Assembly: GCA_025361185.1 (NCBI GenBank)
Contig: JANYAR010000175.1
Span: 1-64,000, forward strand
From: Alphaproteobacteria bacterium
GTDB taxonomy: Bacteria; Pseudomonadota; Alphaproteobacteria; Micropepsales; Micropepsaceae
DNA length: 64,000 nt
Direction of reading: 5' to 3'
Shown: positions 41,157 through 43,486 of the stretch, one piece after another
Position numbering within the stretch: position 1 is the stretch's first letter
Layout: each line of letters starts with the position of its first letter
Notes under the pieces: generated by a model
Databases searched by the model: none
What the model was told of the DNA's origin: nothing
What the model saw: only the letters and a program-made list of their open reading frames with translations
Program-made: the position numbers and the translations under genes

Positions 41157-42017
41157 ATGCTGAGGGGGCAACAAATCCGCGCAGCAATTGCTGCGGCCGT
41201 TTGGATTGGGCTTCTCGTGCCTTTGGCCCGACTGGAAACATCAGCGCCACCACTGCCACAGGCAGCACAAGCCAGCCATGCCAAACCCGATCCCAAAAAG
41301 TGCGAGGAGCGGGATTTCTGGGGACGTACTGTATGCGACCCAGTGGCGGGATATACGGGTATGCTCGCGCTGTTTACTGGTGTCCTGACCCTGGTCAGCA
41401 TCGTTCAAATTGGCTTTCTCATTCGCGCTGATAAAGCTGCCGCAATCAATGCTGAAACCGCCAAACGGCAAATGGCGATAGCCGGCCAGCAAACGGAAAT
41501 CTTGGAGAGGCAAAAGGAAATCCAGCGGCAAGAATTTATCGCTACCCATCGACCAAGACTACGTATGCGGTTGTTGCAAATGGAAAGGCCCGTCTTGGGA
41601 AAGCCCATCGTGGTCAAATACGAGGTCGTGAATATTGGCGAGACCAACGCCCAAATTGTCGACAATACGATCACTATCCGCGTTGACGCCGTTCCCCAGC
41701 CAGAAATACCGGGAGACAGGCCGAAAACCGTTCAACTCAATTTTACGCGGCAGTTCCATTTCGCCAACGACCTCAGGCAAGGTGAGGCGCTGCCTGCCAG
41801 CGGGGAAATAACCACTTTCGACCCGGCTTGGGGCTTCAATGGCCTTGGGGCTTGGTGGGAAAATCGTCTGTTTATAATTGGGATGATTAGATACATGGAC
41901 AATAACGGGGTTTTGCGTAGGACCAGATTCTACAGAGTGGCCACTCAAGACCCCAACCGCTTCGTTTTCCCTCAGTTCGAGACTGCTACGGCCCTCGACC
42001 ACGAATACGAAGACTGA
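41157..42017 (+). CDS. Membrane-anchored protein of unknown function
   Basis: Two hydrophobic segments, coiled-coil-like AAAINAETAKRQMAIAGQQTEILERQKEIQRQEF, soluble C-terminal domain. Confidence 0.7.
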   Translation: MLRGQQIRAAIAAAVWIGLLVPLARLETSAPPLPQAAQASHAKPDPKKCEERDFWGRTVCDPVAGYTGMLALFTGVLTLVSIVQIGFLIRADKAAAINAETAKRQMAIAGQQTEILERQKEIQRQEFIATHRPRLRMRLLQMERPVLGKPIVVKYEVVNIGETNAQIVDNTITIRVDAVPQPEIPGDRPKTVQLNFTRQFHFANDLRQGEALPASGEITTFDPAWGFNGLGAWWENRLFIIGMIRYMDNNGVLRRTRFYRVATQDPNRFVFPQFETATALDHEYED

Positions 42018-42034: not shown

Positions 42035-42153
42035 CGGAACCAAACACCGTCTCCGTGTGTTTGCTTATGGTCAGGGGGGCTCCAACCACCCTGGCCATTC
42101 AAAGAAAAGCCTGGCGCACCCAGCCCCCCCCCAGCCCCGCGCCGGGCTTTTTT
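42035..42153 (+). ncRNA. Candidate structured RNA, copy 1 of a tandem pair
   Basis: H0 CAAACAC/GTGTTTG; H1 GGTCAGGG/CCCTGGCC; H2 AAAAGCCTGGCGC/GCGCCGGGCTTTT followed by extra T (terminator-like). Confidence 0.45.
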
Positions 42154-42177
42154 GTGTCTGAGGCCGACACCACCTGC

Positions 42178-42300
42178 ACCGGGAACGAAGGCGCGGCGCT
42201 ATTCGTTTTCCTACAGTCAGGGCGTCCTGAATCGCTCTGGCAATTCGAGGGAAAGCCTGACGTTTTTTAGCCTCTCCGCTCTGGCGTCAGGCTTTTCTGG
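42178..42300 (+). ncRNA. Candidate structured RNA, copy 2 of a tandem pair
   Basis: H0 GGGAACGAA/TTCGTTTTC; H1 GTCAGGGC/GCTCTGGC; H2 AAAGCCTGACG/CGTCAGGCTTT; linkers homologous to copy 1. Confidence 0.45.
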
Positions 42301-42341: not shown

Positions 42342-42375
42342 GTGCTTGTTTTGTTCTTATTTTTGGGTATATAGT
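42342..42375 (+). promoter_or_regulatory. Candidate promoter with LexA-box-like direct repeat
   Basis: GTGC-N7-GTTC (42342-42356); -35 TTGTTT (42347-42352), 17-bp spacer, -10 TATAGT (42370-42375); ATG at 42383. Confidence 0.4.
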
Positions 42376-42382
42376 CCCAAAT

Positions 42383-43486
42383 ATGACAACCGTCCTGAAC
42401 ACCACCATCCGGCCCGAGCTGCTGCGCGGGCGCGGGGCCGTCTCCAACGCCGTGGGACGCTATGAAAAGCAGACCCGGGTGCTGCTGGATGATGGTTGGG
42501 ACGATGGCTGGCGGGCGGACGACGATACCCCTCCCCCAATCCGCACTGAGGTGATCCACGACGCCACCCGCACGATCATCGCCCACAACAAGTCGCCCGA
42601 CCTTTCCTTCAACCAGTCGATCAATCCCTATCGGGGCTGCGAGCATGGCTGCATCTATTGTTTCGCCCGGCCCACTCACGCCTATCTGGGCATGTCGCCG
42701 GGGGTGGATTTTGAATCCCGCCTGTTCGCCAAGCCTAACGCGGCGGCGCTGCTGGCCAAGGAATTGAGCGCGCCAGGCTATGTGCCGCAGGTGATCGCCA
42801 TGGGCACCAACACCGATCCCTATCAGCCGCTGGAAAAAAAGATGCGCATCACGCGAAGCATCCTGGAAGTGCTGCGCGAGTTCCGCCATCCCGTCGCCAT
42901 CGTCACCAAATCGCCCCTGATCCTGCGCGATCTGGATATCCTGTCGGACATGGCCGCCATGGGCCTGGTCAAGGCGGCGCTGTCGATCACCACCTTGGAC
43001 CGCCGCCTGGCGCGGATGATGGAGCCGCGCGCCGGCACGCCCACGCGGCGGCTGCAGGCCATTCAAGGATTGGCCGATGCCGGCATTCCGGCGGGTGTGA
43101 TGTTCGCCCCCGCCATTCCGGCGCTGAACGACCATGAGATGGAAGCGGTGCTGAACGCCGCCGCCGGCCATGGCGCGCGCAGCGCCGGCTATGTCCTGCT
43201 GCGCCTGCCGCTGGAGATCAAGGATCTGTTCCGCGAATGGCTGGAGGTGAATGTGCCCGACCGCGCCAGACATGTGATGGCGCTGGTGCGCTCCATGCGC
43301 GGCGGCAAGGATTATGACGCCAACTGGAACAGCCGCATGACCGGAACCGGGCCATATGCCCAGGTCATGGCGCGCCGCTTCCACATGGCGGTGAAGCGGC
43401 TGGAACTGAACCGCACCCGGGAGCCGCTGGCCGTCCACAGGTTCAAGCGCCCCACCCGGCTTGGAGATCAGCTCGCGCTTTTCTAA
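42383..43486 (+). CDS. PA0069-family (SplB-like) radical SAM protein
   Basis: SINPYRGCEHGCIYCFARPTHAYLGMSPGVDFESRLFAKPNAA. Confidence 0.93.
   Translation: MTTVLNTTIRPELLRGRGAVSNAVGRYEKQTRVLLDDGWDDGWRADDDTPPPIRTEVIHDATRTIIAHNKSPDLSFNQSINPYRGCEHGCIYCFARPTHAYLGMSPGVDFESRLFAKPNAAALLAKELSAPGYVPQVIAMGTNTDPYQPLEKKMRITRSILEVLREFRHPVAIVTKSPLILRDLDILSDMAAMGLVKAALSITTLDRRLARMMEPRAGTPTRRLQAIQGLADAGIPAGVMFAPAIPALNDHEMEAVLNAAAGHGARSAGYVLLRLPLEIKDLFREWLEVNVPDRARHVMALVRSMRGGKDYDANWNSRMTGTGPYAQVMARRFHMAVKRLELNRTREPLAVHRFKRPTRLGDQLALF

Follow-up and report, generated by a model that had tools for sequence, protein, structure and literature searches.

In rhizobia, AbcR1 and AbcR2 are tandem sibling sRNAs. For the general stress response (GSR) of alphaproteobacteria, the only RNA arms in the open-access papers searched are GsrN and a few predicted relatives, and these were found by expression data and position. 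GsrN is a sigma-T/EcfG-dependent sRNA of Caulobacter (PMC5869019), which is usually encoded near the GSR locus, with C. crescentus as an exception. Another sRNA type of alphaproteobacteria is ar14/cuckoo/NfeR1 (RF02344), and ar14 members have three hairpins with CCUCCUCCC in each of them (PMC10746234). Here we analysed a whole stretch of 64,000 nucleotides (the window) from a genus of uncultured alphaproteobacteria, going by named records, and found two neighbouring units that can be compared with all of these systems. Our main reading, to which we give a probability of about 0.8, is that each unit would be a GSR sRNA gene making an EcfG-dependent RNA of about 85 nt, which probably acts in trans via its loops. 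The units are like AbcR1/AbcR2 (compared through the Rfam scan alone) in being homologous head-to-tail sRNA genes, each with its own promoter, but neither the gathering nor the lax threshold gave an Rfam match to a family of this sort.

Both units are intergenic, unit 1 at 42035-42154 and unit 2 at 42178-42300, and all features given here are on the plus strand. An upstream ORF of 286 aa (41157-42017) terminates 18 nt short of the promoter of unit 1 and had no match in a Pfam search, and a PA0069-family radical SAM gene (NF033668, 528 bits) follows downstream at 42383-43486. The local alignment of unit 1 with unit 2 scored 33, compared with 15.5 ± 2.3 and a maximum of 27 for dinucleotide shuffles (n = 500, none reaching 33). 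Folding of the plus strand gave z values of -3.8 for unit 1 and -4.4 for unit 2, and 0 of 200 shuffles folded as well; the minus-strand folds were weaker (-2.2 and -2.7). Judged by sequence, units 1 and 2 are diverged tandem paralogs. A preliminary description of this locus had already proposed two homologous units, a conserved linker and a terminator-like hairpin closing each unit, and all three were found again here, the linker as AATTC-AAAGCC. Its RNA of 100-120 nt with three hairpins (H0, H1 and H2) has to be revised: the predicted RNA is about 85 nt long and has two hairpins, a 5' stem of 7-10 bp and a terminator whose long loop is usually C-rich.

The sequence of both units holds a promoter and an intrinsic terminator for a candidate discrete RNA. 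In unit 1, the predicted sigma-EcfG promoter (42036-42061) consists of the -35 box GGAAC (42036-42040), a 17-nt spacer and the -10 box TGTT (42058-42061). Predicted small RNA 1, about 85 nt, covers 42068-42153, with a start estimated from the promoter to ±4 nt, and model R2 (see below) matched it at 42064-42153 with 87.2 bits. Its 5' hairpin (42067-42098) pairs ATGGTCAGGG (42067-42076) with CCCTGGCCAT (42089-42098), as given by fold and covariation. The terminator hairpin (42106-42153) pairs AAAGCCTGGCG (42106-42116) with CGCCGGGCTTT (42140-42150) and is followed by a T run, and its loop (42117-42139) is C-rich, including a run of nine C. The predicted sigma-EcfG promoter of unit 2 (42182-42207) has GGAAC at 42182-42186, again a 17-nt spacer, and CGTT at 42204-42207. 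Predicted small RNA 2, also about 85 nt with a start estimated to ±4 nt, covers 42214-42298 (R2 match 42210-42298, 76.1 bits). Its 5' hairpin (42216-42241) has the core GTCAGGG (42216-42222) paired with CTCTGGC (42235-42241), and its terminator hairpin (42252-42298) pairs AAAGCCTGACG (42252-42262) with CGTCAGGCTTT (42285-42295) and carries GCCTCTCCGC in the loop.

BLAST with unit 1 in 100 relatives returned mainly short terminator matches and was convincing in genome G037 only. Searches with unit 1 and RF02344 gave four more copies, two from contigs C123 and C173 of this genome and two from G037, which is of the same genus. The block common to these first six copies begins with GTCAGGG...CTCTGGC, ends in the terminator and excludes the first hairpin. 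The RNA part of the six copies, without the promoter, served to build covariance model R1, which was run over 69 same-genus genomes. It found four loci outside the training set (59.1, 45.8, 42.3 and 37.8 bits), and the next matches after these ten copies were below 30 bits and mostly resembled ordinary gene terminators. In each of the four new loci the promoter stood about 27 nt before the match, with GGAAC in three and GCAAC in one. At the motif density of the window, at least three of four new loci would have the motif by chance with a probability of about 5e-12 under the assumption of independent copies. This assumption is generous, since G018 holds an ortholog (89% identical) of a G037 training copy. 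Model R2 recovered the same ten copies at 57-87 bits, with the next match at 30.6, and in a sample of 290 genomes of the class it found nothing convincing, the best non-family match having 36 bits and no EcfG promoter upstream. A covariance-model search, which the preliminary description had suggested, did find homologs with covariation.

The ten strong copies are in 5 of the 69 genus genomes, four in this genome (on contigs C182, C123 and C173) and six in four others, and among the genomes searched the tandem pair was found in this genome only. The four copies of this genome stand at unrelated places and are mostly 50-70% identical. Two other copies (G037:C137 and G018:C269) are about 260 nt upstream of a radical SAM ortholog, a place shared with the window. 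The predicted RNAs form a small, so far undescribed family that is absent from Rfam. About 13 nt past the terminator are also alike in unit 1 (42154-42168) and in the C173 and G037:C202 copies (GTGYCYRARGCC), which suggests that the duplicated segment is longer than the RNA gene.

The first block of each unit, H0, had been described as an RNA stem, but pairing in the ten copies is confined to the letters AAC and GTT, apart from 0-3 further pairs in an inconsistent register, and the block sits at the -35/-10 place. By its sequence, H0 is no RNA hairpin but a promoter for sigma-EcfG, the sigma factor of the general stress response, and reads GGAAC-N17-(T/C)GTT in both units. An EcfG promoter resembles a hairpin in DNA because its AAC and GTT boxes are complementary, so caution is needed wherever these boxes mimic one. 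All ten copies are preceded by GGAAC (8 of 10) or GCAAC (2 of 10), then 16-17 nt and nGTT; in the eight, GGAAC-N16/17-nGTT stands 27-28 nt upstream of the RNA match. The -10 variants other than CGTT are TGTT in unit 1, AGTT in the C123 and C173 copies and GGTT in G016. Upstream of weaker (decoy) model matches the motif was found in 0 of 27. The exact motif GGAAC-N16/17-CGTT has 45 matches in the 3.5-Mb genome, that of unit 2 among them, fewer than the 110 of a backwards-read control, so the evidence rests on the fixed position relative to the RNA and not on the motif itself.

Similar promoters are described in related bacteria. The GSR promoter of Sphingopyxis is GGAAC-N16-CGTT, where GCAAC is the second commonest -35 box and TGTT an active but weaker -10 variant (PMC7083833), and the EcfG promoter of Sphingomonas is GGAAC-N17-20-GTT (PMC6599016). 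All seven Caulobacteraceae genomes examined as a positive control had GGAAC-N16/17-[CG]GTT at their phyR/nepR region. In the genome of the window, phyR, nepR and an ECF sigma gene, named EcfG by its place beside nepR and its domains, adjoin on contig C100, and GGAAC-N16-CGTT stands before nepR there. The promoter is the most informative part of the units, since it tells when the RNAs would be made, and it was missed in the preliminary description.

In the ten-copy alignment, 91.9% of cells paired, while slid structures paired 28-57%. Changes on both sides were seen in 11 of 21 pairs, in an alignment that was fitted to the model; helix 1 had double changes in 6 of its 10 pairs, and helix 2 had 99.1% of cells paired. 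The covariation score was 0.386, compared with 0.264 ± 0.021 for shuffles, which leave the relatedness in, and 0.05-0.19 for slid structures. No shuffle reached any of the five structure measures. The common 5' stem has seven pairs and lies near the expected transcription start, and the outermost pairs of unit 1 are not generally shared. Together with the folds that beat their shuffles, these changes uphold H1 and H2 as real stems, and the idea of twin small RNAs is backed by the covarying homologs, the terminators, the conserved promoter and the intergenic place. For a 71-aa frame running through the units, stem-preserving substitutions and indels among the copies argue against coding.

The terminator loop is long in most family copies, and it has a CCCC run in 9 of 10, compared with 4 of 24 decoy terminators (p 1e-4). 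The only family loop without CCCC is that of unit 2, which has GCCUCUCCGC. Of the C/U-rich loops noted earlier, the C-rich part therefore stands, but CCUCC is in neither unit. The CCCC loops suggest that the RNAs base-pair with G-rich sites in mRNAs, as GsrN is reported to do, and this seed idea is weaker for unit 2 because its loop lacks the C run.

Could the units be highly diverged GsrN orthologs? GsrN and the EcfG-driven GsrN-like RNAs predicted in Rhizobiaceae share with them the sigma-EcfG promoter with its spacing, a length of about 85-110 nt, an exposed, unpaired C-rich segment, an intrinsic terminator and hosts with phyR-nepR-ecfG. For comparison we used GsrN candidates near nepR, one in Brevundimonas and two in Phenylobacterium, whose long 5' stem holds 7-8 C in a row, and a fourth, divergent one in Brevundimonas diminuta with a shorter C run. 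We took these for GsrN because of where they lie, their promoter and a C run like that of the GsrN paper, and an EcfG-like promoter preceded all four. Model R2 did not match any of the four, and a GsrN model (R3, from three candidates) did not match the family copies, so there was no covariance-model similarity either way. The C run is in the long 5' stem of the GsrN candidates but in the 3' terminator loop of the family. The family is also multi-copy, including the tandem pair, and stands away from the GSR locus; the 3.1-kb phyR-nepR-ecfG stretch (L094) had no R2 match. Orthology with GsrN is therefore very unlikely. By promoter and general layout the units would be the same kind of gene as GsrN, and on these tests they fall outside the GsrN family. 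Across the genus the GsrN model reached 34 bits at best, with no match in this genome, and no EcfG promoter was found upstream of the two matches inspected (G026, G048).

The preliminary description had likened the units to a known anti-Shine-Dalgarno family. Units of the ar14/cuckoo type with three hairpins would share with the family the pyrimidine-rich loops and the conserved stems of varying sequence, and at a lax threshold unit 1 does align over its full length to RF02344 (30.4 bits, E 7e-4), and the C173 copy matches it with 31.1 bits. However, 30.4 bits is below the gathering score of 58.8, unit 2 had no match, and at the gathering threshold the Rfam scan, likewise suggested earlier, found no family anywhere in the whole window. 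The units have two hairpins instead of three, the first ar14 hairpin coincides with the EcfG promoter, they lack CCUCCUCCC, and CCUCC is absent from 42035-42300. Their promoter is of the EcfG type, whereas on the ar14 side control is by LsrB/NtrC. Real CUCC-type loops do occur in RNAs of other genomes of the genus and class, which makes the two kinds look distinct. The likeness was not supported, and we regard membership in this family as highly improbable. RF02344 run in 100 relatives gave nothing above the cut-off, and several weak matches were other C-rich RNAs or plain terminators.

Several further candidate RNAs were noted. Tandem ar14/cuckoo-type RNAs with CUCCUCCUCCC in every loop are found at G080:C1:245431-245802 (L031/L058); their 56.9 and 52.9 bits fall slightly short of the gathering score in Rfam. 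Four loci (L033, L034, L044 and L100, in G026, G010, G033 and G105) carry two-hairpin RNAs with C-rich loops (CCUCCC, CCCCUCUCC) directly 3' of an ORF that ends like LQTDELCPCNWNKGEE and looks like peroxiredoxin; these may be cuckoo-like sRNAs derived from a 3' UTR. L106 (G047:C1:494708-494800), L036 (G017) and L037 (G053) are likewise candidate sRNAs of the genus with C-rich loops, and they lack an EcfG promoter.

An attenuator-like cis-acting leader of the downstream radical SAM gene is still less probable. The units share the strand of the gene, 85 nt separate it from the end of unit 2, and in two relatives a family copy stands about 260 nt upstream of the ortholog; but the C123, C173 and G037:C202 copies do not adjoin such a gene, two full terminators lie in series between the promoters and the gene, and a conserved box of its own stands 27 nt upstream of the gene. 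An EcfG site is also absent upstream of the radical SAM genes of most relatives, and a place upstream of this gene was on this ground rejected as a general rule. A mobile or palindromic (REP-like) DNA repeat without RNA function is hardly credible: four copies at unrelated places of one genome would fit it, but the element is asymmetric, with a fixed succession of promoter, stem, linker and terminator, shows compensatory stem changes and has a low copy number.

The radical SAM gene has features of its own. Upstream of the PA0069-family gene, 26 of 27 genus loci (L061-L090) have a LexA-like box GTACTTGNTTTGTTC (GTGCTTGTTTTGTTC in the window at 42342-42356, GTTCTTGATTTGTTC in some) at a distance of 38-43 nt; in the exception, L080, it precedes the match start by 209 nt. 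Because of this box, the gene may belong to the SOS regulon. At L062 (G037) and L065 (G107), a further GGAAC-N16-nGTT stands before a small ORF, 250-275 nt upstream of the radical SAM gene. The small ORF, which in G037 has the sequence MEKLGPFKLRLIGG..., occupies the position of unit 2 in the window and may encode an EcfG-driven small protein.

For the reading as GSR sRNA genes, the homology, the two covarying stems, the terminators, the promoter at a fixed distance and the presence of a PhyR-NepR-sigma system were computed. From these we infer transcription, EcfG dependence, action by base pairing, G-rich targets and a division of labour between siblings. Stress would activate PhyR, which would bind NepR and free the sigma factor EcfG, and EcfG-RNA polymerase would start at GGAAC-N17-(T/C)GTT to give an RNA of about 85 nt in which an A/G-rich linker joins a short 5' hairpin to an intrinsic terminator whose long loop is single-stranded. 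The RNAs would probably act in trans, with their loops (CCCCAGCCCC-like in RNA 1, GCCUCUCCGC in RNA 2) pairing with G-rich sites near the ribosome-binding sites of target mRNAs, and perhaps the linker would pair too. With two further copies elsewhere, the stress response would launch sibling RNAs with partly different seeds. The claim is weakened because the family is narrow (5/69 genus genomes) and the -10 variants TGTT, AGTT and GGTT replace CGTT. A more tentative idea is that the lineage may have replaced the single GsrN by multi-copy EcfG sibling RNAs, with a tandem pair of diverged loops, as a fast-evolving, branching arm whose seeds differ per copy.

The units would represent a second, structurally different RNA family with the same promoter type as GsrN, found from sequence alone. 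This suggests that EcfG-dependent sRNAs have evolved more than once and may be widespread yet overlooked. The units also give a simple rule for finding others, namely an EcfG promoter followed by a short stem and a terminator with a C-rich loop.
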